From Lichina pygmaea (taxonomy: Eukaryota > Ascomycota > Lichinomycetes > Lichinales > Lichinaceae), in contig OY730170.1 in the NCBI GenBank assembly GCA_963422465.1, forward strand, positions 3,448,379 to 3,512,378: DNA of 64,000 bases, read 5' to 3'. The position numbers and the translations under genes are program-made. The notes under the pieces are model-generated. The model was not told the DNA's origin and made no database searches. It was given only the letters and a program-made list of their open reading frames with translations. Every line of letters begins with the position of its first letter. Within the stretch, counting starts at the first letter, position 1. Shown in pieces: positions 24,029 through 51,650 of the stretch.

Positions 24029-24290
24029 TGTTGCGGTCTGTACCGTACTGTCCTATCCGAGTATAGGATTAGGGCGAGAGGTGGAAGGCGGGTTGGTTCT
24101 CGCAGGAGAGGAGTGTCAAGGAGTGCGAAGGGGTTTGGTGGAACGTGGTGGTGGTGACACCTGATCAACGGCTTCGTACAAAAGGATTTTATTGAAGTAG
24201 ATCTAGTTGTCTGGATCACAACATGAGTTGAAGAGAATTGTTCCATAGGGGAACTATCACCAGACTATATAGTGCTCAGTTCGTGAGCAC

Positions 24291-24599
24291 AGTGAGCTCT
24301 GCTCACTTTGCTCACGGTTCATGCACGCTGCGGTGAGCTGGGTGAGCTCTGCTCACTTTGCTCACTTGTTCATGCACGCTGCGGTGAGCTGGGTGAGCTC
24401 TGCTCACTTTGCTCACTTGTTCATGCACGCTGCGGTGAGCTGGGTGAGCTCTGCTCACTTTGCTCACTTTTCATGCACGCTGCGGCAAGCTGGGTGAGCT
24501 CTGCTCACTTTGCTCACTTTTCATGCACACTGCGGCGAGCTGGGTGAGCTCTGCTCACTTTGCTCACTTGTTCGTGCATATGCATGCTGCGGCAAGCAC
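24291..24599. repeat. G3 LTR minisatellite, 6 units of about 51 bp
   Basis: Each unit begins GTGAGCTCTGCTCAC, a 6-bp inverted repeat with a 3-base loop, and continues through TTTGCTCAC, TTCATGCACGCTGCGG and AGCTGG. The matching array in the other LTR (30331-30482) has three units. Confidence 0.92.
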
Positions 24600-24690
24600 T
24601 CCCTGGTTTGTCTTGCCGGTCATGTGACTGGTTCCCGTGCCACACTGTCTGGTACTTCCGTCCAGTATCCTGTCTGCTGCTTTCTGTGAG

Positions 24691-24700
24691 TATATAAATA
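24691..24700 (+). promoter_or_regulatory. Antisense TATA box in the G3 3' LTR
   Basis: TATATAAATA on the plus strand, 24 bp before the LTR end and about 140 bp before the antisense accessory frame. The same site in the other LTR reads TATATAAA at 30575-30582. It points toward the antisense ORF, opposite to the element's own transcription. Confidence 0.6.
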
Positions 24701-24839
24701 CTGTGTTCCTCCTGGGTCGTAACACTATCCTCCTCTCCATCTTTCATCATCTTGATGAAATCTGGTCATGCCTCCAAAGTCACATGCGACTGTTAGCTGA
24801 ACTCAGCTTGCTGCTCAAATCCGCAATCAGGGTTTTGTT

Positions 24840-25172
24840 TTGCGTACGCCCTGCGACTTTTGTGTTCTCCGTGGTCATCCGTGCTTCCAGATGCCAGGAG
24901 AAGACGATAAGTTGAAATATGCTGCGTGCACTCGGCGTGGAAGGTCTTATATCTCTGTGTCCTGGGAATCTCTGAACATGTCCCAGGACAACCTCCGTGA
25001 GGATGTGGCCACTGACAAGGCAACGCGCGACGCACTCTTTGAACAACTTGCCACGGTGCAGGCTTGTCTGTCTCAGAAGCGAAAGGTGTTGGAGGGCACT
25101 GAGGTCTGTGCGAAGCAGAAGCTTCAGTGCTTGGTGAAAGAGATGGAGTCAGATGGCGAGGATTTGACTTGA
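24840..25172 (+). CDS. G3 antisense accessory ORF (Zn-cluster-like plus coiled coil), fossil
   Basis: Lies between the 3' LTR and the chromodomain end of pol but on the opposite strand. The frame encodes about 110 residues: TPCDFCVLRGHPC gives C-x2-C-x6-C, followed by a basic CTRRGR block and a charged, probably coiled-coil stretch (LFEQLATVQACLSQKRKVLE). The arrangement parallels the better kept G1 frame (45686-46258), and the second cysteine trio is only partly preserved. The start is not certain. I know no named domain for it. It is probably non-functional in this copy. Confidence 0.55.
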   Translation: MRTPCDFCVLRGHPCFQMPGEDDKLKYAACTRRGRSYISVSWESLNMSQDNLREDVATDKATRDALFEQLATVQACLSQKRKVLEGTEVCAKQKLQCLVKEMESDGEDLT

Positions 25173-32367: not shown

Positions 32368-32686
32368 TGTCACAGTTCTGGCCCAGTTGCATATCTGGCA
32401 CAAGCCACACACCTTGCCGGGAAGTCCCATCTGCACTGTTTGCCTGTATGCTCCGCTGTTGCCGGGAAGTCCCATCTGCACTGTTTGCCTGTTTGCTCCG
32501 CCATTGCCTGATCCCCTGCCTATAAGAACTTCTCCTGCTCCCCCAGCTTCTTCTCTTCTTCTTTTCTCTTTTCTTTCCTTGTCTTTCGTCTTGTACATCA
32601 ATCCAAGTCTCAAGTCTCAAGCCAAGTCAGGTCAAGGTTACTGAATCAGTTAGGCTTGAGTTCTGCTCTGCTATTGCCTTGTCACA
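32368..32686 (+). repeat. G2 5' LTR (319 bp)
   Basis: TGTCACAG to CGTCACA-type ends. Two 45-bp tandem units at 32416-32505 (each beginning GCCGGGAAGTCCCATCTGCA) precede CCTATAAGAAC at 32518-32528, the likely TATA region. Same length as the 3' LTR. Confidence 0.92.
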
Positions 32687-32744
32687 CTACGAAAGACCTA
32701 CCCAACCATAACACACTTCACCAAGCCACGTTCACGTCCTTGTC

Positions 32745-33545
32745 ATGTCTCAACAACCAGACCAAGCCATGCCAGTTGCTGGAAATGACAAGTTCCTTTG
32801 CAACATGTTTGCAGAGTTCATGCGAATTCAAGCTACTAACACTACTCCCAAGTCCAAGTCTGAACACACTGCTGACCCAGAGATCTTCAGTGGTGATGGC
32901 GGAAACACAGAAATCACGCATGAGAAGCTTGAGAGCTTCATTATGTCACTGTCACTCAAGATGACACTCAACACTGACTGGTACCCCACAGAAACATCAT
33001 GGATTGTGTACGTCTTTTCACGCACGACTGGCACTGCGCAGTCCTACATCTCAGCTAAGATCACAGCTGGCCAGTACATTGACTGGCATGACATCATCCA
33101 AGATCTCCGGAACACCTTCTCCGACCCAGACCCAGAGTTCCTAGCTCAGAGAAAGCTCATCACCTTGCGTCAGGCCAACCATTCCTTTGCTGAGTTCTTC
33201 ACAGAGTTCAATCAGTATACTCCACGCACAGGCTTCAACAACAAGGCCTTGAAGTGCCATCTTCGATGCACTGTCTCTGAAGAGCTTGCCAAGCAGCTTG
33301 TTAGCATCAACCTCAAGGACATCAGCTATCAGAAGCTTGTTGAGGAATGCCAGCTGCAGGACAACCAGTTGCGTGCCACTTCTGCCAACTCTCACTGTCC
33401 ACGTCAAGCACCTCCCACCCAAGCCTCAGTTCCACAGTCAGAAGCTTCAGTTCTGTGTCCAGAGTTCATCAAGCCAGTCTTCACGCCACAGCCACCAAGT
33501 CCTACCATAGATCTCAGCCACTCTAAGCTGACACCAGAAGAGTGA
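32745..33545 (+). pseudogene. G2 gag remnant
   Basis: A 266-codon frame resembling Ty3/gypsy capsid: AQSYISAKITAGQYIDWHD, FSDPDPEFLAQRKLITLRQ and FAEFFTEFNQYTPRTGF. It starts 58 bp after the LTR. Treated as a fossil with the rest of G2. Confidence 0.8.
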
Positions 33546-36500
33546 GAACATCACTGAAGCAAAGGCCTCTGCTTCTACTGTGGAAACCAAGGTCACATCT
33601 CAACCTTCTGTCCAGTGAAAAACATGCCTGTTGTTGCCACCACCACAACCACCACCAAGTCTGCCACTGTTGAGACTACTCCAGAGTCGGAAAACAAGTA
33701 GTCCTTGGTTATCATCACACCCAAGAATATGAAAAGAATCTCCATGTTGGCTATCTGTCTCCAGACCAGCAATTAGACAGCAAGTGCTTGGTTCTTCCTT
33801 GTATCCTAGATAGGAAATTCAAGTGCAATACTCTTATTGACTCTGGCTGTTCAGTATTTGACTGCATTGGTGTTTCCTTTGCACAATCTCTTCACCAAGA
33901 ACCTCTCCCCTACCCACACACATTGTGATTGTTTGATAGCAAGATGTCACAAACCACACATCTCACCAAGACAATCATGACCCCAGCACATGGCATGCAC
34001 CAGAAGGAAGTCTCTCTCTTTGTGTCTCCTGGTCTTCACTATGATATGATTCTGGGGATACTATGGCTCCAGAAGTACAGGCTACACATTGATTGGACAA
34101 ACACCTCAATCATGTTCAAGTCAGATCACTGCTGATCTGCATGCCTCAAGTCAAACAATGGCTATCCAATCTCTTTGGATCTTGAAGCCAAGATGTCTGC
34201 TGGAAAGCCTCAGGATCCCAAGCCTCTTTCTGCCACACCAATCCCCATCAATGCTGCCGCATTTTCTCTCCTTACTGCCAAGCCAGATCACCAGGTGTTC
34301 AGTGTTTCTCTGAGAGACATTGAGCAGGTGTTGAAGCCAAAGAAGTGTGTGGACCCTGCCACACTTCTCCCTGCTCAGTACCACAAGTTCCTGGACGTCT
34401 TCAGCAAGGATGACGCTGACAAGCTTCCTCCTCTACACCCAGGAGTTGACCACAAGATCAAGATGGAACCAGGAACCCAGGCACCCTCTGGACCTCTGTA
34501 CAGCATGAGCAGAGAAGAACTTGAAGTTCTCAAGAAATACCTGACAGAGAACCTGAACAAGAGCTTCATTCAAGCATCTTCATCACCTGCTGCTGCACCA
34601 GTCCTCTTTGTCAAGAAGCCAGGAGGTGGATTGCGTTTCTGTGTAGACTACAGAGCACTCAACACCATCACCATCAAGAACTGTTACCCCCTACCACTGA
34701 TCCAGGAGATGTTGGACCAGCTTTGCAAAGCTGTGTGGTACACCAAGCTTGATATTGTTGGTGCCTTCAACTGTATCCAGATGAAGGAAGGTGAAGAATA
34801 GAAGACTGTGTTCCGCACACGCTCAGACCTCTACGAATACCTTGTCATGCCCTTTGGTCTTGCCAATACTCCAAGCATGTTCCAGAACTACATCAATGAT
34901 GTTTTGGGACCTGACATCCTTGATGTCTTTGGCACTGCCTATGTGGATGACATCCTTATCTACAGTCAGACACTCAAGAAACACCAGAAGCATGTCAAGC
35001 TTGTTCTCAGTCAACTACAAGATGCAAGCCTGCAAGTTGACATCTCCAAGTGTGACTTTGAAGTCCATCAAGTCAAGTACCTTGGCCTTATCATTCAGTC
35101 TGCCACTGAAGATGGCTGACCCAGATCTGTGAGTATGGACCCAGCCAAGACCAACACCATCAAGGAGTGGAAGCCTCCTGCCAGTCTCAAGGAAGTGCAG
35201 AGCTTCATTACCTTTGCAAACTTCTACCACCAGTTCATCAAAGACTTTGCCAAGCTTGCATCCCTGCTCACAGCTCTGACCAAGAAGAATGTTGCCTTCA
35301 AGTGGGAAACCCCAGAGCAGTGCTTGTTTGAAAGTATCAAGAAGGTGTTCAGCACTGCACCTATCCTGCAGCACTTTGATCTGGAGAAGGAGTGTGTTGT
35401 TGAGACTGACACTTCTGACTACGTCTCTGGTGCTGTCCTGTCACAGCCAGACCATGAAGGAGTTCTACACCCTGTTGCCTTCTTGTCACACTGCCACCTG
35501 CCAGCAGAATGCAACTACAAGATCTACAACAAAGAGTTGCTGGCAATTGTCTGTGCCTTTGAAGAATGGCGAGCAGAGCTTGAAGGATCTCCAGAACCTG
35601 TCAAAGTGATCTCTGATCATAAGAACTTGGAGTACTTCATGTTGTCAAAGCACCTTTCCCACTGTCAAGCCTGTTGGAGCGAGTTCTTGTCACACTCCAA
35701 TTTCAAGATCAGCTACCGCCCAGGCAGTCAGTGCAAGGCCAACACCCTCACTTGACATTCCCAAGACCTCCTGTCAGACAGTGATCCCCATCAAGACTTC
35801 ATGGAGCAAGTCGTCCTCAAGCCCAAAAATCTTGCATATTCAGAGGTTCAAGTCAAGCTCATCCAGATCCTGAGATGTTCAGAAGCTGCACCAGTTGACA
35901 CTGAACCTGATGCTACACCTCTTTCAGACATCATCCAAGCTGCCTATAACAACCTTGCTGAAGGTGACCCAGTGGCAACAGTGTCACAGATGCTAAGGGA
36001 TAGTGTCAGGCACAGTCGAGAAGTGTCTCTCTCAGACTGCAGCTTGGAAAATGACTGTCTCTTCTACAAGAACTGACTCTGGATCTCTGAGAATGATGAG
36101 CTACACCTACACCTGTTCCAAGAAGTCTATGACCAAGCAATGGCTGGCCACACTGGGATTGCCAAGACCCACAATCTTCTGTCTTGTTGGTACTATTGGC
36201 CAAAGATAGTGAACATCATACAGCAGTACATCAGGAATTGTCATGTCTGCTCTTGAGCAAAGCCTGCCTGTGATCGCCAAGGAGAGCTGCTGTCTCTCCC
36301 TGTGCCTCTGCAATGTTGGCAGGATCTGGCTATGAATTTCATTACTGACTTGCCCAAGTCAAGAGATGCCTGCTTCCCTGGTGCTAAGCACATCTGGGTC
36401 ATCACTGACTGTCTCACCAAAGAACACCACTTTGTGCCATGTGCTGAGATGACAACCTCGCATCTTGTCTGGATGTTCATCTAGTTTGTTGTCTGTACCC

Positions 36501-37462
36501 ATGGCTTGTCCAGAAGTATTGTCTCAGACAGAGGAGGTCAGCTTGTCAGCCTATTCTGGAAAACACTCTGTGCCCATCTTGATGTCATGCTACGACTATC
36601 CTCAGAACACCACCCAGAGACAGATAGTCAGACAGAACAAGAGAATCAGGAGCTTGAACACTACCTGAGATCCTATGTCAACTATCTCCAAGATGACTGG
36701 GTCCAATGGCTTCCTCTGGCAGAGTTCACGCAGAACAACTCCCAGTCTGATTCCTCTGGCATGTCACTGTTCTTTGCCAACAAAGGGTTCCATCCACAGC
36801 TCAGCATCATACCCACAAGTGAAGCCTGCAACCAAGATGCTATAGAAATCTCTGGAGAAATGACGCAGATTCTGGAACAGTTGCAAGCTGAACTCCGACT
36901 ATCCCAGGAAGCTCAAGCTCACACCGCCAATTTACATCAAGTCCTGTCACTGTCCTATCAAACTGGAGATCTTGTTTGGCTGAATACCAAGAACATCAGG
37001 ACACGCCACCCATGCAAAAAGCTTGACAACAAGTGGATTGGACTATTCAAGGTGTTGAAGACAGTCGGAAGCTGTGCCTGCCATCTGGAGCTTCCACACA
37101 CTCTCAAGATCCACCCTGTCTTTCACGTTTCCCTTCTACGTCTGACACCTGCTAATCCTATCCCTGGCCAATCAAATGAACACTCTGGCCCTGTCATTGG
37201 TCAAGACACAGATGAAGAGTTCTAGGTTGAAGAAATCCTTGACTCCAAGCCAGCAACATCTTGACAGAAGTTCAAGTACCTGGTCAAATGGTCTGGATGG
37301 CCAATTGAAGATGCCACTGAAGAGCCTATTGAGCATCTTGACAACACCAAAGACACCATCTACAACTTCCATGAGAAATACCCAAGAAGACCACAGCCAC
37401 AGAACTACACCCACAAGCGGCCTGAGGCTCACAGGAGTTTGCCATGTGAAGGAGAGGGGTAA

Positions 37463-37781
37463 TGTCACAGTTCTGGCCCAGTTGCATATCTGGCACAAGC
37501 CACGCACCTTGCCGGGAAGTCCCATCTGCACTGTTTGCCTGTATGCTCCGCTGTTGCCGGGAAGTCCCATCTGCACTGTTTGCCTGTTTGCTCCACTGTT
37601 GCCTGATCCCCTGCCTATAAGAACTTCTCCTGCTCCCCCAGCTTCTTCTCTTCTTCTTTTCTCTTTTCCTTCCTTGTCTTTCGTCTTGTACATCAATCCA
37701 AGTCTCAAGTCTCAAGCCAAGTCAGGTCAAGGTTACCGAATCAGTTAGGCTCGAGTTCTGCTCTGCCATTGCCTCGTCACA
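37463..37781 (+). repeat. G2 3' LTR (319 bp)
   Basis: Partner of 32368-32686, preceded by a GGAGAGGGGTAA purine tract. The two tandem 45-bp units are at 37511-37600. Confidence 0.92.
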
Positions 37782-39389: not shown

Positions 39390-40781
39390 ATGGCTCCCAA
39401 GAAGAAAAAACCCACCTTTTCAGAAAGTAACACCAGAGCTACACCAGCTATACTCTCCCAACCAGCTCCCAGTCTGGCTAGCACCCAGTCCAGCTCTCCT
39501 ACCCCCCAACCAGCTCCCCAGAGTGACTACAAACTAGTAGACTCCTGGATCAAAACTCAACCAGTCCCAGAATCCATTCTGAAAAGCTGGGAAAATATCA
39601 AAAAGAACTCCTTCCCTACAGAAGCCCAGTCTAGCTCCACTGGCCTCACCAACAGAATCTTCCAGGAGCTGGAGAATATCAAAAAGCGGCTGGACAAACA
39701 AGAAGCCAAGCCATCATATGCCCAGGCTGTCCAAAAATCTATTCCAGCACAAATCCCTCTACCTGCAAGAATTCTCAAAGAAGTTCTTGTACATCCTGGT
39801 ATCCAGCCACCTGACATGGCTAATACAACTCACATCCAGCTTTTCCAGGCTCTTCAAGACAGACTACCCAGCCCCTACAACAAGCAGGTCAGAGCAGTAA
39901 GGAAACTTCCTTCAGGGGATATCCTTATTAACACAGAAAGCCAAGAGACTAAAGTCTTCCTAGAGAAAACCCCTGCCTGGGTATCAGCTATCTTCACAAA
40001 GGAAGCAACCATCCAGCCCAAGAGATTTCCAGTTCTGATCCATGGAGTCAGAACAGAAGATATCCAACCTGAAGACCTGGAGAAAACCCGCCAGATAATC
40101 CAGAACAGCAACCCATCTCTGAGCAAGCAAATCACCATCCTGAGAGCCTACTGGTCTAAGAAGGCTATAGCTCAAAAGAAGCCAGTTACCTCTCTCCACC
40201 TGGATCTGGCTACCCCTGAACAAGCCAATCTTTTGATTGAGAGTGGGCTAGTGCTGGGGCACAGGATGCATGAAGCAGAACCTTTTCTGGCAGACACAGT
40301 TATTGCACAATGTTTCAAGTGCTTTGGCTATGGGCACCAAGCACACTTCTGCAAGAACAAAGCTGTGTGTGGTGCCTGTGGAGGCCAGCATGAAAGGAGA
40401 GCCTGCCAAGTTCCTGAACAGCTTCTCAAGCCAAAATACTGCAACTGCAGAGGAGCTCACCCAGCCTGGGCCAGTGTCTGTCCAGTACGCCAGGAAGCAG
40501 CCAAGAAGGCAAGAGAAGCATGGAACACACGCCCAGGAAAATATGAGATCCCAACAGCTACCTCTGTTCCAGCTCTACAACCCCCCCCAGTTATGTCTTT
40601 CCCTCTCTCTCAGTCTCTACCAGGGGGGAAAAAACGTAAAACAGCTGAGCCAAGCAGAAGCTCAGAGAGACTCAGAGGTGCACTCCCAGAAGTGCAAATT
40701 CTTTCTTCAAGATCAGCCAACTCTGGAGGAAAGCTACCAGCTAACTCCTTCAAGATCTTTGATGCTGAGATGTCTGCATGA
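39390..40781 (+). CDS. LINE1 ORF1 (zinc-knuckle nucleic-acid-binding protein)
   Basis: An open frame of 463 aa. The N-terminal half is P/S/Q-rich (MAPKKKKPTF), followed by a coiled-coil-like NIKKRLDKQEAKPSYAQAV and an RRM-like middle. Near residues 310-365 are three CCHC-type knuckles: CFKCFGYGHQAHFC, CGACGGQHERRAC and CNCRGAHPAWASVC. Such ORF1 products bind the LINE RNA in the RNP. Its stop overlaps the ORF2 start (ATG at 40778), so ORF2 may be translated by reinitiation. The frame looks intact. Confidence 0.9.
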   Translation: MAPKKKKPTFSESNTRATPAILSQPAPSLASTQSSSPTPQPAPQSDYKLVDSWIKTQPVPESILKSWENIKKNSFPTEAQSSSTGLTNRIFQELENIKKRLDKQEAKPSYAQAVQKSIPAQIPLPARILKEVLVHPGIQPPDMANTTHIQLFQALQDRLPSPYNKQVRAVRKLPSGDILINTESQETKVFLEKTPAWVSAIFTKEATIQPKRFPVLIHGVRTEDIQPEDLEKTRQIIQNSNPSLSKQITILRAYWSKKAIAQKKPVTSLHLDLATPEQANLLIESGLVLGHRMHEAEPFLADTVIAQCFKCFGYGHQAHFCKNKAVCGACGGQHERRACQVPEQLLKPKYCNCRGAHPAWASVCPVRQEAAKKAREAWNTRPGKYEIPTATSVPALQPPPVMSFPLSQSLPGGKKRKTAEPSRSSERLRGALPEVQILSSRSANSGGKLPANSFKIFDAEMSA

Positions 40782-43462
40782 AAGACACAAAGCTGACACT
40801 TCTCCAGTATAATGTGCAAAAAAGCCAATCAGTCCAAGAGCTACTGCTAGCAACCTCAGCTCTCCAAGAGGTGGACATTATTGCACTTCAAGAGCCCTGG
40901 AAAAACTCTCACCTAGAAACAAGCACTTCAACTGTTTTCTCTTCCTTTCTTCCTCTCTACTGTTCAGAGATTGGCAGAACACTTTTTCTTATTAATAAAA
41001 ATCTGAAACTCTCTTCTCTTCATCCTACCTTCTGGAATAAAGACTTTGTTTCTCTTGAAATCTACTTGGAAAACTCTTCTACTTCTCTTTGGGTACATAA
41101 TCTCTACTTCACCCCATCAAGTCAAGAAAACTACACAGAGGCATCAGAAGCTCTTCTCTGTTTACTCCGAAATGCTTTACAAGAACAAGGACAACATATT
41201 CTTCTCACAGACTCAAATCTTCACCACCCAGACTGGTCAAAGAAAGGAAGACTGTACTCTGAGACTGCAAACAAGTTTCAAGACCTAATGAAAGATTTAA
41301 ATCTGGATTTAGCTATTGCACCTTTCACCCCTACCAGAGCAAGATCTCTTTCTGAAAAACTATGTTCTTCTATTGATCTGTCTTTTATTTCTTCTTCTCT
41401 TTCTAACTCTCTGATTTTCTCTAAAGTGGCTCTTCAGTTCTTTCATGGGTCTGACCACAGACCTGTACTAACCTGCCTGGACCTGGATCCTCCAAGGAAA
41501 ATCTGGAAACCAGAAAGAAACTGGAGAACACTGGACTCAAACCTTGCAAGAGTAGAGTGTGAGAAGCTACACCTGCCCTTCCACTTCCAAGACAAATATG
41601 AAGTGGATGAGTACTTGGAGTATCTTGACAACTTTCTCCAAGAAATAGCAAGCAAATCCACACAGCTCCAGAAGCAATCTGGCCACTCAGTTCCCTGGTG
41701 GAATCAAGAGATCCAAAACAAGGTTAAAGAGGAAAGAAGAGTAAGAAGAAAAGTGCAAAAAAGGCAAGCAAGTCAAGAGGAACTTGAGCAAGCAACTAAG
41801 CTCAAGAAAAAGGCAGTCAGAGATGGAAAACAGAACACTTTCAGACACCAAATCCATGAGCTGGCCAGCTCTTCAAAGTTCTGGAAGCTTGCAAAGTGGG
41901 GAAAGTCCAAAGCCAACAAGACTCCTGATCTTCCTCTGGTTCCTGACCTGGAAACACAAGAAGGAATAGCCAAAACCTTTGAGGAAAAGACTAAAGCCTT
42001 CTCACAACAGTTCTTTCCAAAAGCTCTAGTTCCAGAACCAGGCTCAGAAAGCTCCCAGACTATCTCTGAGATACAGCTCTCCCAGGAGGTAACATGTGAA
42101 GAAGTGGAGCAAATTCTGGCCAAGATGAAACCTTTCACAGCAGGAGGGAGAGATAAGCTGCCAAATGGATTTCTGAGAGCTCTGGGGCCTAGGTTCTGCC
42201 AAGCTCTAGCTATTCTGACTTCAACATGCTGGAAACTGGAGTACTTCCCTGAAAGATTTAAGAGTGCAAAAACAGTCTGCTTGAGGAAACCTGGCAAGGG
42301 AACCTACAATCAAGCTAAAGCCTGGCGCCCTATAGCTCTGCTAAACACAACAGGCAAGCTGATGGAAGCTATTGCTGCAGCCAGACTAAGCAAGATAGCA
42401 GAAGAAGCTGGACTATTGCCAGATATCCAGATGGGCTTTAGGAAAGGAAGATCCACAGAAGCAGCACTTTTCCTTCTAACCTCCCAAGTGGAAAAAGTCT
42501 GGAAGGAAGGCATGGTTACATCCCTACTCTCACTGGATATCTCAGGAGCCTATGACAGAGTTCTCCCCAAGATACTACAGCAAATTCTGAAAAGAAAAGG
42601 AATACCTGCCTGGCTAGCTTCCTGGATCTACTCCTTCTGTGATAAGCACTCTACCACTCTTGTCTTTGATGATTCTGAGTCTTATTCTATTCCTATTCAT
42701 TGTGGAGTTCCTCAAGGTTCTCCATTATCCTCTATTCTTTTTCTATTCTACATTTCTGAATTGCATGAGACTGTGCATACTCCCTCTTCTGGTGTATCTG
42801 CCCTGGAGTTTGCAGATGATACAAATCTGCTTGCTTTTGGTCACTCCTTGAAAAGTAACCTTCTGAAGTTAAAGAACACACACCACAAATGTCTATCCTG
42901 GGCTGCAAGACATGGAATGGTCTTCTCACCTGAGAAATATAAAATACTTCATTTTTCCAGAAGAAGATCAGACAATCTTCAGCTCAAGCTCAGACTGGGG
43001 AATGTGATTCTCAAACCAAAAGAAGAAGTGCGAGTACTTGGAGTGTACCTAGATGCAAAGCTCCACTGGCACAAACACCAGAGGATTATTCTTCAAAAAG
43101 CACAGAAAGCACTCTCTTCTCTTTCTAGAACTTCCTATTCTACTTGGGGCTTTCCAGTTCACACATCACGTCTGGTGTACACTGCTATACTGAGATCTCT
43201 ACTGAGCTATGCAGTGGGGATTTGGTTTAACCCTCTAAGAAAATCCTCCAATATCTCTTCTCTTGTTTCATTTCAAAACAGATGCCTAAGACTTATTGGG
43301 GGTGCCTTCAAAGCCACTTCTTCTTTTCTATTAGAGAGTGAGCTTTTTCTTCTACCTCTAGACCTATACTTTAAATTTCGCACTGCCTGTTTTCTTTCTT
43401 CTATTCAAAACTCCCCTCTCAAATACTTTCTTGACAGTATCTTTTCCACTATTTCCAGCTAA
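40778..43462 (+). CDS. LINE1 ORF2 (endonuclease-reverse transcriptase), C-terminally cut
   Basis: An open frame of 894 aa. An APE-like endonuclease occupies about residues 1-230 (LLQYNVQKSQ, IALQEPWKN, LLTDSNLHHPDWS, GSDHRPV). The reverse transcriptase lies at about 480-760: PIALLNTTGKLMEAIAAARL, QMGFRKGRSTEAALFLL, LSLDISGAYDRV, CGVPQGSPLSSILFLFYIS and FADDTNLLAFG. A stop at 43460-43462 ends it before the C-terminal region that copy C and LINE2 share; the frame continues afterwards at 43463-44020 with another stop and the knuckle CVCGQAEETAKHITSSC. The element is therefore probably inactive, though close to whole. Confidence 0.9.
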   Translation: MKDTKLTLLQYNVQKSQSVQELLLATSALQEVDIIALQEPWKNSHLETSTSTVFSSFLPLYCSEIGRTLFLINKNLKLSSLHPTFWNKDFVSLEIYLENSSTSLWVHNLYFTPSSQENYTEASEALLCLLRNALQEQGQHILLTDSNLHHPDWSKKGRLYSETANKFQDLMKDLNLDLAIAPFTPTRARSLSEKLCSSIDLSFISSSLSNSLIFSKVALQFFHGSDHRPVLTCLDLDPPRKIWKPERNWRTLDSNLARVECEKLHLPFHFQDKYEVDEYLEYLDNFLQEIASKSTQLQKQSGHSVPWWNQEIQNKVKEERRVRRKVQKRQASQEELEQATKLKKKAVRDGKQNTFRHQIHELASSSKFWKLAKWGKSKANKTPDLPLVPDLETQEGIAKTFEEKTKAFSQQFFPKALVPEPGSESSQTISEIQLSQEVTCEEVEQILAKMKPFTAGGRDKLPNGFLRALGPRFCQALAILTSTCWKLEYFPERFKSAKTVCLRKPGKGTYNQAKAWRPIALLNTTGKLMEAIAAARLSKIAEEAGLLPDIQMGFRKGRSTEAALFLLTSQVEKVWKEGMVTSLLSLDISGAYDRVLPKILQQILKRKGIPAWLASWIYSFCDKHSTTLVFDDSESYSIPIHCGVPQGSPLSSILFLFYISELHETVHTPSSGVSALEFADDTNLLAFGHSLKSNLLKLKNTHHKCLSWAARHGMVFSPEKYKILHFSRRRSDNLQLKLRLGNVILKPKEEVRVLGVYLDAKLHWHKHQRIILQKAQKALSSLSRTSYSTWGFPVHTSRLVYTAILRSLLSYAVGIWFNPLRKSSNISSLVSFQNRCLRLIGGAFKATSSFLLESELFLLPLDLYFKFRTACFLSSIQNSPLKYFLDSIFSTISS

Positions 43463-44208
43463 GCCTCTCTCTTGAAGAAACCTTTAAAAGAATCCTCAAC
43501 TATCTCTCCTAAGTGGAAATTCACTTGGTTAAGTCAAATAACTACTAACCAGGCTAGTTCAAAGAAAGAACTACAAAAGCTCTTTACTAAAGAGTGGGAA
43601 GACCAATAGGAAGAGAAGAAAAGAAGAAGCTATCCAGGCTGGCAGACTTTCTGTCAAAAGCCACACAAAAACAATCTGAAGCTCTACAAAGAGTTACAGA
43701 AAGCTGAGGCAAGTCTGCTACTGCAAATCAGGACTGGAAGAATTGGTCTGGCAAGTTTTCTTTTCAGAGCTGGAGCTCCTGACTTCCCTACCCCACTATG
43801 TGTGTGTGGCCAAGCAGAAGAAACTGCAAAACATATCACCTCTTCATGCTCTCTTTATTCAAGACAAAGACAACAAGTCTCTTTTAATCCCCAAGACTTC
43901 ACCACTATTATTTCAAACCCAGAGCTACTACAGAAGTTCTTGTACTGGTTTATGTCTTTGAAAAGACTAAACCAGTTTAATCTAGCTTTCAAACTCCACT
44001 ATTCCCAATCCAATACCTAGATTCTCTTCTCTTACCAGAAACTTCAAGATTCCTTTTGTTACATTCCCTAGTCACACCGTGCCTTCAGTTTTTATCTCTT
44101 CAAAGGTTTTCTGAAGGAGTTCACTATTAGCTAGAAGATCTGCATGGCTGTAAAGCTACTACCAGTGTAAGAATCAAATAAAAAAATAAATAAAAAAGAG
44201 TCTTCCAA

Positions 44209-45221
44209 GATCTCAGTAGCTTTTTTTCTGGGTATGTTGATTTGGAACTCTGAGTTCTGTGCAAGTGGGAAAGTGGGGAGCTGAGTGTTCAGTCTTGAGC
44301 TTGAGCATACTCTTAGTACTTCCCCTTGTTTTCTTTTCTTAGCTTCTTGTCTGTCTTGTAGACTTGGCCCTTTTTCTTGTGTTGAGGGAGTCTGAGGTAG
44401 AGCTAGTCTGGGAGCTATTGTGTACCTCCCTGGTCTTGCTAGCCATACCTCTCTTGCTTTCTGGATTGCTTCCTGTTTTTTCTGGCAGGACTTTGACCAG
44501 GCTGGGTGGTTTCCCTTGCAGTTTGCACATTTTGGTGTTAGAGTTTCTGGAGAAGTCTGGTAGTCTCTTCTGGCATGCTTTCCTCCACAGGCTGTGCACT
44601 GGGCTTGGGCTTGGCAAGTGCGTGCTTGGTGTCCAAACCTAGCACATTTGTAGCACTGGGTGACTGATGTTGCTAGCAGGGCTGGTTCTACTTCATGTAG
44701 AGTGTATCCTAGAACTACTCCTTTCTCAATTAGGAGGTTTGCTTGCTCTGGGGTGGCTAGATCCAGATGTAGAGATGTGACTGGCTTCTGGAGGAGTTTG
44801 GCTTTTCTGGACCAGTAGGTTCTTAGGATGTTGACCTTACTTTCCATCCCAGGGTTTTGGGAGAAGATTGTCTTTTTTGTTTCCTCCAGGTTTTCTGGCT
44901 TGAAGTCTTTTGTCTGCACCCCATGGACTAGCACTGGAAAGATTCTGGGTGATATCTTGGCCTCTGCTGTAAAGACAGCTGGGATCCAGTCCTTGTTTTC
45001 CTCTAGCTGAGTCTTGGCTTGAGGAGTTTCCAGAGAGATTATAATATCTTCTGAGGGTAGTTTTCTGGCTGCTCTTATTTCTTTTTGGCAGGAGAGTGGT
45101 GTTTTCTTCCTGAGAGCTTCCATGAGCTGGGCTGGTGTTCTGTTTGCTAACTGGCCAGTCTGAGTTCCAGGTCTGATAGTGATTTCACTGTGGATTCTGG
45201 TTGGAACAGGGATTTCCTGTC
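44209..45221 (-). pseudogene. LINE2 segment: ORF1 C-terminal half
   Basis: Minus-strand frame 45123-44200 carries the RRM-like region and three knuckles (CYKCARFGHQARTCQ, CTACGGKHARRDYQ, CANCKGNHPAWSKSC), parallel to LINE1 ORF1. The second knuckle lacks its last Cys. The frame runs into the LINE1 tail at 44208, giving a chimeric end. The right end is the G1 insertion. Confidence 0.88.
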
Positions 45222-45624
45222 TGTTAAGGGCCAGTCCATGTTCACACAGAATGTGGGTGGTCCTGTCTTCGACTGAGGAGGGCAGGGACTCAATAGATGA
45301 ATAGCAAGTGGGGTAACTCTCTTGCTATTATCACTCGTAATGTGCGTTCAGCCTGGAGAGCTAATCCCTCCGGGCTCTTTGGGGGTCTTTATACAGATGC
45401 CCCAGGGGGGGGGTCTTCTCGAGGGGTATCATCCTTTTGCGTGGACGAGCTCCTCGCTTAGCTCCTGCTCGTCCACCGGACGAGCTCCTCGCTTAGCTCT
45501 TGCTCGTCCACCGGACGAGCTCCTCGCTTAGCTCTTGCTTGTCCACCGGATCAGTCAGATGTTGTTCTGCATGACTAACACCTCTCCCTCGCTTACCTGG
45601 GCTGTTCCGGCCTAGGCCTTAACA
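45222..45624 (-). repeat. G1 3' LTR (403 bp)
   Basis: TG...CA ends. Three 35-bp units at 45446-45550. It is exactly 35 bp, one unit, shorter than the partner LTR. Confidence 0.94.
45446..45550. repeat. G1 3' LTR minisatellite, 3 x 35 bp
   Basis: Same unit as 2211-2350, with one CCGGA and a GAGCTCCTCGCTTAGCTC core per unit. Lies in U3 upstream of the minus-strand TATAAA. Confidence 0.93.
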
Positions 45625-45685: not shown

Positions 45686-46258
45686 ATGAACCAAAGCCAG
45701 ACAACTCAAACTCGTCACCGTGGTTTTCTCTCTTGTCGTGTTGGCAAAATAGGCAAGGAATCAAAGATCGCATGCGGTGCTTGTTGTCATGACCACGCCA
45801 AGTGTGTCGTGAGTTCTGCATCGTCTTTTTGTTGTCAGTGCATCAAGAAGGGTTGTCGCTGCGACCTTCATCTCTCGGAATCAGAATGGAAGAAGATGGA
45901 GCTTGAGCGTGAGCAGCTCGAGGCTCAGCTGCGGGAGACTGATAACCAACTGTCAAAGCTGCTTCCCCGGCAGATCCGCCTCCGCCGGCAGCTGGGTTGT
46001 CTCTCACAGAAGGAGGCCGATGCCATCTGTCGTGAGCTGTCAGCCATCAAGGATCAAGAGTCCCTTGATGCTCAGGAACAAGAGGCCCTCTGCGTTATCC
46101 GCGAACAGGAGGCCTGTCAAGCTGCTGCTCCACTGTCCTTTGAGGACGTCTTCTCTTCGGAGGCTTTGGCTTCTCTCGAGCTGTTGTCTCCGTCAGACCT
46201 GGTCACTGTGGATTTGCTCGGTGGTAATCCACCAATTTCTGGTTCATCGCAGAGCTGA
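45686..46258 (+). CDS. G1 antisense accessory ORF: Zn2Cys6-like cluster plus coiled coil
   Basis: An open frame of 190 codons on the strand opposite to gag-pol. It starts 62 bp inside the 3' LTR boundary, and its end overlaps the end of pol by about 55 bp, tail to tail. Cysteines 30, 33, 40, 49, 52 and 59 give C-x2-C-x6-C-x8-C-x2-C-x6-C, the spacing of GAL4-type binuclear zinc clusters. A charged heptad-like stretch follows (about 64-105, EREQLEAQLRETDNQL), as in fungal Zn2Cys6 regulators. The C-terminal half is acidic. There is no Trp-rich or other known domain. Similar frames occur in G3 and as a remnant in copy B. Role unknown; DNA binding is inferred from spacing only. Confidence 0.65.
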   Translation: MNQSQTTQTRHRGFLSCRVGKIGKESKIACGACCHDHAKCVVSSASSFCCQCIKKGCRCDLHLSESEWKKMELEREQLEAQLRETDNQLSKLLPRQIRLRRQLGCLSQKEADAICRELSAIKDQESLDAQEQEALCVIREQEACQAAAPLSFEDVFSSEALASLELLSPSDLVTVDLLGGNPPISGSSQS

Positions 46259-49200
46259 AGTTCTCGGTTGGTTCCCACGAATTCTCCTCTTCGTCAAATC
46301 CTAACCACTTCACCAGGTACTCAGTTTTCCGTCTGTTTCTCCGGCTGTCTAGGATCCTTTCGACATTGTACTCTTCTTCGTCGTCCTCGAAGTGCCATTC
46401 TGTTTCGATTGCCGTGTCGCTGGGTGCTGGCTTGAGCAGCGAGACATGGAATACTCAGTGTATCCGTGCCTTTTTCAGCAGTCTCAGTCGGTAGTTGACT
46501 TCTCCAGTGCACTTCTCAATCTCAAACAGTCCGATTCGTACATGATCCAGCTTTTTGCTCGGTCGCTTCGAGCGCAGGTTTTTTGTTGACAAATAGACCT
46601 TATCCCCCCTCTCCAGGGTTGGTCCCTTCAACCTTTTGCTGTTTAGGTGGTGGCTTGTTGTCTTTTGTGCGGATTCAATTGCAGTCTTCATTTCCTCATG
46701 CATAGCAGTGAGTTTTTCGACGTTCGTTGAAGTGCCACTTCCAGCCGCCATCACTTCCCAGCAGGGGTTTCTGCCGTAGTTTGCAAAGAACAGCGTCATG
46801 CCCGTCACGCTGTGTTGCTGATCATTGTACGCAAACTGAGCCATTGGTAGCAGTTCTACCCAATCGTCCTGTCGGTGGTTGACGTAGTGGCGTAGGTACT
46901 GTTCCATCGTCTGGTTTGTTCTCTCAGTTTGTCTGTCTGTTTGTGGATGGTAGGCAGTAGACATCCTCGTGTCTATCCCTAGCTGTCTTGTCCACGTGTT
47001 CCAGAATTTCAAGGTGAAGAGTTTGTCTTGATCCGAGATAATCTTCGTGGGTAGCCCTCGCTGGCTAACCAATTCTTTGAGCAGGACATTGGCAAGTTCG
47101 CTTGCTGTTCCTGTCTCTCGCCACAGGATCAGGTGAGCGTATTTGGTGAGTTTGTCAACAACCACCAAGATACTGTCATATTTCACCTTTGTTACCGGGT
47201 CCTCTGACCTCGGCAGCTTCACCACAAAATCCATTGTGATGGTATCCCAAGCCACTTCTGGGAGGTCTATTTGTTGACTCTCTCCATAGGGTTTGTGGCA
47301 TGATGGTTTGTTTTTCGCACACTCTTCGCAGTTGCGAATAAATTCTGTCACTTTCCGCTTCATTCTGTTGAAGTGGTAACATCTCCAGATCTTTTCCAGG
47401 GTCTTGTCTCGCCCAGGATGTCTGTGTAGAGGTCCATCGTGATGTTGTCGAATCACGTCCTCTTGTGCACTCTCTGGCACTTCTTCCTTGTTCGTGGCCG
47501 CAACGTTGTGGCCTAGGGTCAGGAGTGCACCCATTTCTTCAGTTTTCGCTAACTGAGGTTGAGCATAGACCAGAGTTTGTCCTTTTGTCACAAGGATTGG
47601 GCGCTCTTCTGTCGTGTTGTCTGTCGTCATATCAGGCCGCCTGCTAAGCGTGTCTGCTCATGCATTTTCTGATCTTTTTCGATAGAAGATCTGGAAGTTG
47701 TATGAAGCTAAAAGCTCCACCCATCAGACTTGTCGTCTGTTTAGCTTCTTCATCGTCGTGAAGTAAGCCAAATTCTTGTGGTCTGAGTACACGTCCACTG
47801 TGTACTTTGCTCCTTCCAGGTAAGGTCTCCACTCCTGGAATGCGTCGACAATCGCTAACAACTCCTTGTCGTGAACATCGTACCTGAGTTCTGGGCCAGA
47901 GAACTTTCTCGATCAGTATGCGACAGGGTGTAGGCGGTTTTCGGCGTCTGGTTGACACAAGCAAGATCCAAGTGCTTGGTCCAAGGCATCTGTCTCCATG
48001 ATGATCTGCTGTCCAGGATCAAATGATGCCAGTATGGGTGCGGAGGTGAACTTCTCTTTCAGCTCCTGGAACACTCTCTCTTGGCTGTTCCCCCATGTGA
48101 AGGTTTCTTCCTTCTTTGTTAGTTCAGTCAAGGGTGCTACTGTCCTTGAGTACTCCTTGATGAATCGTCGGTAGAAGTTCGCAAATCCCAGGAAGGATTG
48201 GACTTCTTTGAGGTTTTTGGGTGTTGGCCAGTCTCGTACTGCCGTGGTTTTTGTATCGTCTATACAGATTCCTTCTGTTGTCAGGATCGATCCCAAATAT
48301 TCCACTTCTTTCACGTGGAAGACACTCTTATCAAGGCGTAACCTTATTCCTGCTTCTTGGAGCGCATGTAGGATCTTCTTGACATGCTGTCTGTGCTCCT
48401 CCAGGGTTCCATTGGTGTAAACCAAGATATCGTCAATATAAGCAGTAACAAATATATCCAGGTATTGTTGGAGGATGGCGTTAATAAGCGATTGGAACAT
48501 CGCCGGTGCATTTGTAAGGCCGAATGGCATAATAGTATACTTGTAATGCCTGTACCTTGTACGAAAGACTGTCTTCCATTCTTCGCCATCTTTCATCCTA
48601 ACCAGGTTGAAAGCGCCTCAGATGTCGAACTTGGTAAACTACTTGGCTCCTTGGATTCAGTCCTGGATTTCCGATATTAACAGTAGTGGGTAGTGATTCT
48701 TAATTGTGATCGTATTAAGCTGCCGGTAGTCGACACACAGTCGTAATTTGCTGTCCTTCTTTGGCACAAACAATATCGGGTATCCGGCCGGTGATGTTGA
48801 AGGTCTTATGAACTCTTTCGCTAGGTTCTCGTCCAGGTAATCTCTTAAGGCCTCAAGCTCCTTTGCTGATAGAGTGTAAATAGAGCTATGTGTGGGTTTC
48901 TTTCCGTCTTCCAGCAGAATTTCGTGATCCCACTCTTGGTGTTCTGGTAGCGTCGCGACCACTTCCTCACCAAACATCTCCTGGTAGTCTTTATACTCAC
49001 TTGGCAGCTGCGGTGCCTGAGTCTCGCCCACGGCGTCATGCGTGGTGTAAAGTTGATGGTTTCGGGGCTTCATCCAAGCCACATAGGCTCGCCCTCGCCG
49101 GTGGTGCTTCTTCCACCCTGCATATGAGATCTCTTTGATTCTCACTTTCTCTGGCTCTGCTCGAGTTGCCAGACTCCTCTTCGGAAAGACTAGGTGCCTT

Positions 49201-51169
49201 CTTTTCCAGTCGATCCTTGGGTTTTGACTTTCCAACCACGGAAGACCCAATATAACTTCATGTGGTATCTGGACCAAGTCGAATTCTTCTGATCTGATTG
49301 TTGTACTGTCGACACACAGTCGTAGGTTCTTGGTCTCCTTCGTCACTTGTCCTTGGTCGTTGGAGAGTGGTGTCCCGTCCACTACCGTTAGTTGGTATGG
49401 ATTCCTCTTTTCCTGAGTTGGGATCTTGTGCTTCCTGGCGAAACTTTCTGACATGAAGTTGCCAGTAGCTCCAGAGTCAATCATGGTGTTTGTCAGATGC
49501 CCGTTGACTCTCATCCTGATGCGAAAATACGGACTGCAGGCTGTCGTGTCAAGGCTCTGCTTGACCCCTTCTCTCCGGAGTGTTGTCTTGCCTGCTCTTC
49601 CGACTCCGGATTTGAAGAGCACTGCTAGTTTTTTGAACAACCAAGGCCCTGAGCCTGGCGTTCTGCCGCGTGTCTTTCACATTTTTCAGTGAAGCATAGC
49701 TCCCATGCGTCTTCTCCGCAATCATCGTGTTCTTTCCCTTGCTGGCTTAGCTGGTGCTTGATGCTCCAGGCTTTCTTGTGGTATTCTGGGCCAGGGAAGT
49801 AGTGCCTTCTCCTTTTCTCTAGGAGATGTTCCTTGCAGTGGTGGTCCTCACATCCTTTCCAATAAGGACGTCTGCAGGCTGGTGTCGTAGCCTGGTGAAG
49901 GTCCACTTGCGCTGCGATGTCTCGGGGCTGTGAGATGCTGATGGTGTCGTCCACCCATCATGTCACTCTTGCTTCACTGTCCTCTGACAAGGTCACATCC
50001 TGTTGTCGGAGTAGTGGTGTCTCGGGAACTGGTGGCATGCTGGTTATATCAATCTCGTAGTCTGTTGTGTCGAATTCGGAGATCAGGTCATCCTCCCAAT
50101 GAACCTTATCAATCTGGTCTTGGGTTGCGTGCAGGTCCTCCAGTGACCTCTGCAGATTGTTCTCCAGTCTTTCGATGTGCTGTCTGAGATTGTCCTCCTG
50201 TCTGAGGAGTGTTGCTTCTGACCGGTTCATGGGTAGTGTGCCTCTGGGAGCCCTCGGTGGCTCCTGAATGCCCTTGCCTTTCCAGGCACCGGTGGCATTC
50301 AACTGCTTACCCTTGCCTTCTTTCTCCTTCTTGCTTTGGCAGTTGGCTGCAAGGTGTCCTACCTTCTGGCAATTGTAACACTTCCGTGTTTCTTTCTTCT
50401 TTGTTGCCTGTGGTGTTGTTGCATCAATCTCCATGGGTGTCAAGCCGTACTTGTCTTGTGCTGGCGCTGTCTTTTTGCCCCATGGCCTTGCATGCTTGCC
50501 TCACTTCTCGAGTTCTTGTTTGAACTGTCGGTCGTCAATGCGTACTGCTGTGTCAATCATATCCTCGAGGTCGGTGGGTCGGTCTCCTCGTGCGATGTCA
50601 TCCTTGACTTGTTCCTTGAGAGCTTGGTAGAATAGTGCCGTCAAGGCACTGTCTCCCCATTGTGTCCTCACTGACAACTGTTGGAACTTTGCCGCAAAGT
50701 CTGATGCTGACCCTGTCTGCCGTAGTGCTTGGAGCTTTCGTTCCGCATCTTGTTCTTCATCAATGACCCCAAAGGTCTTCTTCATCTGGGTCTTGAAGGT
50801 AGAGAATCTCCCAATGATCTGCCGTGTCGTGGTCTCCATACTAGAGGGGTCTTCCTTGTTGTCGAGGAAGTCTCGTAGGTAGACATTGAACCAGGCAAAT
50901 GTCAGTCTGTCCAGGTAGGAAGCTGTGAACAGCACCTTCTCCTGTTCCGTAGGGAATTGTGTGGCGTTGAATCTGTAGTAAAGCTCAAGCTGGGAGAAGA
51001 ATAATTCCAATCCCCCTTGTGATCTATCATACCTCTTCGGCGTACCTACCTTCAACGGCTTTGGAGGTAAGGTGAGGGTGGTAGGGACAGGTGGTTCCTG
51101 GGCTTGCGCCTGAGGCGCAGCCCGAGCTTGGCCTGCCTGCGAAGGGGTAGGGCTGTGTGGATCTGCCAT
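46203..51169 (-). pseudogene. G1 gag-pol region
   Basis: Minus-strand capsid/nucleocapsid, protease, reverse transcriptase, RNase H, integrase and C-terminal chromodomain in the usual Ty3/gypsy order. Fossil with several interruptions; described under G1. Confidence 0.9.
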
Positions 51170-51207: not shown

Positions 51208-51645
51208 TGTTAAGGGCCAGTCCACGTTCACACAGAATGTGGGTGGTCCTGTCTTTGACCGAGGAGGGCAGGGACTCAATAGATGAATAGCAAGTGGGGT
51301 AACTCTCTTGCTATTGTCGCTCGTAATGTGCGTTCAGCCTGGAGAGCTAATCCCTCCGGGCTCTTTGGGGGTCTTTATACAGATGCCCCAGGGGGGGGGT
51401 CTTCTCGAGGGGTATCATCCTTTTGCGTGGACGAGCTCCTCGCTTAGCTCCTGCTCGTCCACCGGACGAGCTCCTCGCTTAGCTCCTGCTTGTCCACCGG
51501 ACGAGCTCCTCGCTTAGCTCTTGCTCGTCCACCGGACGAGCTCCTCGCTTAGCTCTTGCTCGTCCACCGGATCGGTCGGATGTTGTTCCGCATGACTAAC
51601 ACCTCTCCCTCGCTTACCTGGGCCGTTCCGGCCTAGGCCTTAACA
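51208..51645 (-). repeat. G1 5' LTR (438 bp)
   Basis: Partner of 45222-45624, with four 35-bp units (51432-51571). TATAAA (minus strand) lies near 51374-51381, on the gag side of the array. The duplication ctgtc follows at 51646-51650. Confidence 0.94.
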
Positions 51646-51650
51646 CTGTC

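Follow-up and report, generated by a model that had tools for sequence, protein, structure and literature searches.

A minus-strand gypsy retrotransposon, here called G1, carries a 190-codon open reading frame (ORF) on the opposite strand to its own genes, and the locus raises the question of whether this frame is a gene and, if so, what use a retrotransposon might have for it. G1 lies in a 64,000-nucleotide stretch of Lichina pygmaea DNA (contig OY730170.1, positions 3,448,379 to 3,512,378), referred to below as the window. The original prediction had read the frame as an accessory gene with the layout of fungal GAL4-type regulators and offered three roles for it: a transcription factor for the element, a silencing antagonist, or a chromatin tether. 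We found that the antisense ORF (aORF) is a selected accessory gene and not a by-product, because it occurs in many full-length copies, recurs in a second family, and has a frame-specific ratio of nonsynonymous to synonymous substitution rates (dN/dS) of about 0.2. Its product is, on balance, probably a small GAL4-type protein with putative zinc- and DNA-binding activity.

The 190-codon frame was present as claimed and unbroken in the window copy, in which gag-pol is split into several frames. It is placed between pol and the 3′ long terminal repeat (LTR) of G1, antisense to gag-pol, with 61 bp separating its start from the LTR. The pol frame stops at 46203 and overlaps the aORF by 56 bp, close to the 55 bp or so first estimated. 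GAL4-type regulators have six cysteines spaced as CX2CX6C-X5-12-CX2CX6-8C, and the putative ligand cysteines C30, C33, C40, C49, C52, and C59 of the aORF fit this pattern with exactly the predicted spacing, CX2CX6CX8CX2CX6C. Shuffling the residues of the window protein, which has 14 cysteines, produced a motif of this kind 42 times in 200,000, and shuffling a relative with nine (P0001) produced none in 200,000. Among the 492 stop-to-stop frames of at least 60 amino acids in the window, three had the motif: the aORF, a piece at 2514-2603 on the minus strand, and a frame that crosses the tandem repeats of a different LTR and was rejected as a repeat artefact. The shuffles and this whole-window scan, together with the six-frame dN/dS controls described below, ruled out a chance frame.

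Protein searches covered one 32.5-Mb genome, whose Zn_clus domains and element types point to a fungus. For the aORF, 150 of 274 candidates were scored and all 150 matched, 147 of them over residue 1 to 189 or 190. In the DNA of 110 of these family-A matches, 109 copies aligned ungapped and one needed a gap of 3 bases; four of the 110 lacked some of the start. Internal stops were absent from 40 copies; 52 had one, 15 had two, and three had three, and 61 of the 91 stops sat at one and the same codon, close to the N terminus. Per 100 codons there were 0.14 stops when that codon was excluded and 0.44 when it was counted; the integrase piece in these copies had 0.75, a comparison biased by a scan that favoured intact aORF matches. 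The exact six-cysteine pattern was kept in 100 of the 110 copies, with each ligand position being cysteine in 107 to 109 of them, and the same exact pattern was present in all eight family-B or older copies. The six putative zinc cysteines are kept both between copies and between families, a conservation that the original prediction had named as support for a gene. Cys17 was cysteine in 109 of the 110 family-A copies, but not in the family-B proteins. Residues 34, 50, 57, and 115 were rejected as zinc ligands, as they vary between Cys, Arg, and His (with some Tyr) across the 110 copies. Family B, for which 150 of 281 candidates were scored, has at least 61 copies with at least 84% identity to P0038, 53 of the 61 being stop-free. 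Its protein is about 60% identical to that of family A, and older relatives of the aORF were found at about 56 to 66% identity. A second copy of the G1 family starts before the window and appears to fill its first ~2.3 to 2.4 kb (C2:3444842-3445411). The minus-strand piece at 2514-2603, a fragment of a family-A accessory gene that retains the complete motif, lies just past this part-copy in the opposite orientation.

Selection on the frame was estimated with our own implementation of the GY94 codon model, tested against neutrality. Three family-A copies were used, those with the highest CpG content among 39 stop-free full-length ones, plus five of the eight family-B or older copies. Within-family diversity did not serve as the main test, since transitions dominate it and transversion differences are few. 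In nine A-B pairs, dN/dS was 0.21 to 0.27, and in six pairings between A and two older copies it was 0.23 to 0.33; neutrality was disfavoured in 15 of 15 pairs, with twice the log-likelihood difference (2ΔlnL) being 25 to 51. One B copy compared with an older copy gave 0.42 (2ΔlnL of 12). The first pair differed at 34, 28, and 66 sites at codon positions 1, 2, and 3, respectively. When codons after 172, which overlap pol, were excluded from stop-free A and B copies, dN/dS of the aORF was 0.18 to 0.22 in three of three pairs, while four of the five other frames gave values above 1; the mirrored frame gave 0.38 to 0.41 but had 4 to 11 stops per sequence. The pol-overlap part alone gave 0.72 to 0.78, which was not significant. 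With an overlap of only 56 bp and purifying selection that persists outside it, the frame was rejected as a by-product of pol coding, and the proposed independence from pol held, as did the expectation of a ratio well below 1. In the zinc region, dN/dS fell to 0.09 to 0.12 in three of three pairs. Estimates for the coiled coil hit or neared the boundary, and only whole-frame and zinc-region values were used.

The predicted protein has the layout that had been described for it, with a predicted coiled coil of 83 residues following the six-cysteine cluster; GAL4-type regulators also have a coiled coil after the cluster. In the predicted structure of the relative P0001, 10-residue means of the predicted local distance difference test (pLDDT) were 94 to 97 over residues 71 to 140. 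Using Foldseek, all 15 PDB matches of the predicted relative at E≤10 were Zn2Cys6 DNA-binding domains, none individually significant, and the closest predicted folds were those of the GAL4-type regulators PUT3, HAP1, Leu3, GAL4, and Pho7. The Pfam family Zn_clus (PF00172) matched 4 of 11 proteins (E≤10), 5 of 10 (E≤10, in register in these five), and 8 of 24 (E≤1) in separate scans, none above the cut-off; the best score, for P0006, was 20.0 bits (E=7.6e-4) against a cut-off of 21. RING, PHD, and other folds were rejected, their Pfam or PDB matches being weak and inconsistent between members. The best of them was a zf-PHD-like match of one protein of the G2 type described below (P0098, E=0.0018), also under the cut-off, and PHROGs gave no match. 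The predicted structure points weakly to a Zn2Cys6 fold, with no rival fold. The aORF protein has the cysteine spacing of GAL4-type regulators, and theirs are the nearest, if individually non-significant, predicted folds; it is unlike them in being carried by a mobile element, in its length of 176 to 190 amino acids, and in falling under the Pfam cut-off.

By its domains, LTRs, and target duplication, the carrier G1 is a Ty3/gypsy chromovirus. On the minus strand it has gag, a CCHC knuckle, protease, reverse transcriptase (RT)/RNase H, integrase, and SH3_Tf2-1, and a profile search placed a chromodomain at the end of pol (E=1.4e-15). A 5-bp target duplication, CTGTC, flanks the LTRs on both sides. 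The LTRs are 403 and 438 bp long, the longer having one extra 35-bp repeat, and 10 of 403 aligned positions differ between them, all by transitions. The 35-bp repeats form tandem arrays, at whose junctions the dyad GCTCGTCC-ACC-GGACGAGC arises. In the 3′ LTR, the array sits on the upstream side of the aORF, about 135 to 245 bp from its start and about 50 bp from a TATA-like box presumed to belong to the sense promoter. The 17-bp core of the dyad had 185 exact matches in the genome against 0 for the reversed control, and a search with one unit motif found at least one repeat unit in 30 of 30 family-A copies with long flanks and at least two in 28 of 30.

The family-B LTR is homologous to that of family A, with 76% identity over 453 columns including the leader (two B copies). 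Its array has a different period, 47 bp, and different intervening sequence, while the half-site GGAC(G/A)AG is kept in both direct and inverted orientation (two copies). A family-B array motif occurred 222 times in the genome, against 0 for its control. Counting both orientations, the two window LTRs have 6 and 8 GGACRAG sites and each of two family-B LTRs has 5, compared with 42 in the 63,155 bases elsewhere in the window, a stretch that takes in part of another copy of the same family, with its LTR. We propose the arrays as candidate binding sites for the aORF protein.

A more distant element in the window, G2, is likewise a minus-strand chromovirus, with protease, RT, integrase, a chromodomain, and an LTR at 24029-24724. 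Its own antisense gene is broken in the window copy, and 150 of 150 scored genome candidates (150 of 497) matched it. The G2 antisense protein has at least 56 database relatives, of which 16 were aligned and nine span the cluster region; seven of these nine have all six cysteines, as CX2CX6C-X10-11-CX2CX6C. Zn_clus matched one of nine scanned G2-type proteins (E=0.86), and other zinc families fit some of them equally well or better. The G2 LTR holds 22 GTGAGC/GCTCAC sites, against 28 in the 62,759 bases elsewhere in the window. A TATA-like box at 24691, near the inner LTR edge, points toward the G2 antisense gene, and together with a TATA-like sequence at 24266 it flanks the array, an arrangement like that of a two-way promoter. 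The third gypsy element, G3 (32368-37762, plus strand), has gag, RT, and SH3_Tf2-1, and its LTR contains a 45-bp repeat. Dyads of this kind were not found in that LTR, where shuffles also give near 0 (mean 0.34), and no frame with the cysteine motif was found in G3 by a scan that would miss a decayed gene such as that of G2. G3 is a possible contrast case.

Among the three roles first offered, that of a transcription factor is favoured because of the dyad arrays in the LTR. We lean toward the view that the aORF encodes a zinc-cluster factor regulating the LTR of the element that carries it. Its antisense transcript would probably start in the neighbouring 3′ LTR, giving a protein with an N-terminal Zn2Cys6 cluster, then a long coiled coil for dimerising, which is the role of the coil in HBZ of human T-cell leukaemia virus type 1 (HTLV-1), and then a C-terminal acidic-hydrophobic patch. 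The dimer would bind the dyad half-sites of the LTR array and so control, in trans, the LTRs of its family; activation combined with autoregulation is the likeliest mode. In GAL4, the stretch between the second and third cysteine contacts DNA; these residues are nearly alike in families A and B and different in G2, so that shared residues go with a shared half-site and different ones with a different dyad, which is suggestive, with three points. We put forward only tentatively, at slightly short of an even chance, that fungal chromoviruses encode their own zinc-cluster transcription factor in antisense and that each family co-evolves this factor with a private LTR dyad array, operator and regulator being transmitted together.

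Compared with mononucleotide shuffles, the dyad counts of A and G2 were equalled by the best of 200 shuffles (means of 0.86 and 1.13, respectively); they comprise nested readings of the same sites, and the counts alone are weak. The evidence for linking array to gene comes from three cases with the gene (A, B, and G2) and one without it (G3), too few for statistics.

The main rival to an activator, which we hold to be unlikely, is that the same DNA-binding protein limits the element, by repressing gag-pol or by antagonising a host-encoded activator at those repeats, in the manner of the HBZ/Tax pair. The sense TATA-like box is close to the array, and the placement of the gene is that of HBZ, whose transcript comes from the 3′ LTR and which is an antagonist of Tax (PMC5797633). 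The C-terminal patch of A and B, however, is acidic-hydrophobic, as might be expected of an activator. We consider it improbable that the protein is instead a chromatin or integration tether, with cluster and coil guiding the pre-integration complex or aiding the chromodomain in site choice, and the LTR array unrelated. Targeting evidently matters to elements whose pol ends in a chromodomain, as in G1 and G2, and the aORF shares 56 bp with the end of pol, but a tether leaves unexplained both the dyad arrays found beside the gene in all three of A, B, and G2 and the half-site that is kept while the rest of the array changes.

That a host regulator was captured and kept for some other end, for instance to counter silencing or alter host genes, seems very improbable: a source is available in the at least 27 Zn_clus domains of the genome (E≤0.001, six-frame search, all 41 candidates scored), which seems a low number for a filamentous fungus, but the matches listed are runs of near-identical multi-copy families with no stand-out intermediate. 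A functional antisense RNA (double-stranded RNA, silencing, or antisense interference) with an incidental frame is scarcely tenable, as RNA roles of antisense retrotransposon transcripts are discussed in a review (PMC7264820) but the six-frame comparison, with frame-specific purifying selection at a dN/dS of about 0.2 and a frame preserved over copies and families, largely refutes it.

Lying antisense between pol and the 3′ LTR, in many copies with coding conservation, the aORF falls within the class of antisense LTR-retrotransposon genes called aORF-3R. A fungal gene with which it can be compared, brtn of Boty, is reportedly owed to Zhao et al. in 2011. Antisense accessory genes at this position have been reported from plants and from the Boty element of Botrytis (brtn), and according to the same review the function of such genes in LTR retrotransposons is not known (PMC7264820). 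The brtn gene of Boty-like gypsy elements of Botrytis cinerea is mentioned in PMC7264820, PMC8365987, and PMC4227169, the accessible parts of which name no zinc cluster for it, and we liken it to the aORF by description only. Among the plant genes compared (Grande gene23, RIRE2, Retand ORF4/TRP28, and PvRetro13), the Grande protein is nuclear and Retand has antisense TRP28 proteins predicted to bind DNA (PMC11963269). The domains of the plant proteins differ from that of the aORF (TRP28, SMC), with no zinc cluster named in the portions at hand, and the Retand repeats are in the internal region, unlike the arrays inside the LTR here. The claim that no gypsy accessory protein of this kind had been described stood for the zinc cluster, as far as these sources go, and has to be qualified for antisense accessory genes at this position. 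No zinc-cluster accessory gene of this kind was found described in the literature searched, which for the most part did not extend to subscription papers.

The nearest working parallel would be HBZ, an antisense gene expressed from the 3′ LTR of HTLV-1 that encodes a regulator with a coil (PMC5797633). It is a basic leucine zipper (bZIP) protein, not a zinc cluster, from a retrovirus of people, and we liken the working logic only and claim no homology. The 35-bp LTR repeats with their dyad half-sites, the half-site kept in the otherwise different array of family B, and the recurrence of the layout in G2 are new here. The gene pairs a recognisable regulator architecture with a candidate binding site inside the LTR of its carrier, and does so in two related families and a distant one of this genome. 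If the proposed regulation is true, a retrotransposon lineage uses a typical class of fungal regulators for self-control, a working parallel to HBZ/Tax of HTLV-1 outside the retroviruses, and A, B, and G2 are naturally occurring factor-site pairs in which specificity change can be studied.

Table 1. Coordinates of features of G1, its antisense gene, and G2 (positions in the window)
Feature	Position	Strand	Remark
Antisense accessory gene (aORF), 190 aa	45686..46258	+	unbroken in window copy
Zn2Cys6-like cluster, residues 30-59, CX2CX6CX8CX2CX6C	45773..45862	+	
Predicted coiled-coil helix, residues 65-147	45878..46126	+	
Acidic-hydrophobic C-terminal stretch common to families A and B	46121..46219	+	possibly activation-domain-like
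35-bp tandem array, 3.1 copies, 3′ LTR	45443..45550	.	proposed binding-site array; upstream of sense TATA-like box
Dyad GCTCGTCC-ACC-GGACGAGC, first copy	45467..45485	.	
Dyad GCTCGTCC-ACC-GGACGAGC, second copy	45502..45520	.	
TATA-like box GTATAAA	45388..45394	-	presumed sense (gag-pol) promoter
35-bp tandem array, 4.1 copies, 5′ LTR	51429..51571	.	
3′ LTR of G1, 403 bp	45222..45624	-	
5′ LTR of G1, 438 bp	51208..51645	-	
Target-site duplication CTGTC, low side	45217..45221	.	
Target-site duplication CTGTC, high side	51646..51650	.	
gag of G1	50501..51169	-	domain match
CCHC zinc knuckle piece of G1	49958..50443	-	domain match
Aspartyl protease piece of G1	48657..49640	-	domain match
Reverse transcriptase/RNase H piece of G1	47913..48596	-	domain match
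Integrase piece of G1 with SH3_Tf2-1	46455..47630	-	domain match
Chromodomain end of G1 pol	46206..46454	-	stop 46203-46205 inside aORF
G2 antisense gene, diverged zinc-cluster spacing	24768..25172	+	broken early, 4 of 6 Cys
G2 LTR array, 50-bp unit, 5.7 copies	24292..24578	.	dyads GTGAGC-TCT-GCTCAC

The window also contains a non-LTR element at 39390-43462, with endonuclease and RT within 40778-43462, and a frame at 44131-45123, about 100 bp from the gypsy insertion. Neither that frame nor the first ORF of the non-LTR element had a Pfam match at E≤0.001; by eye, the two resemble each other.
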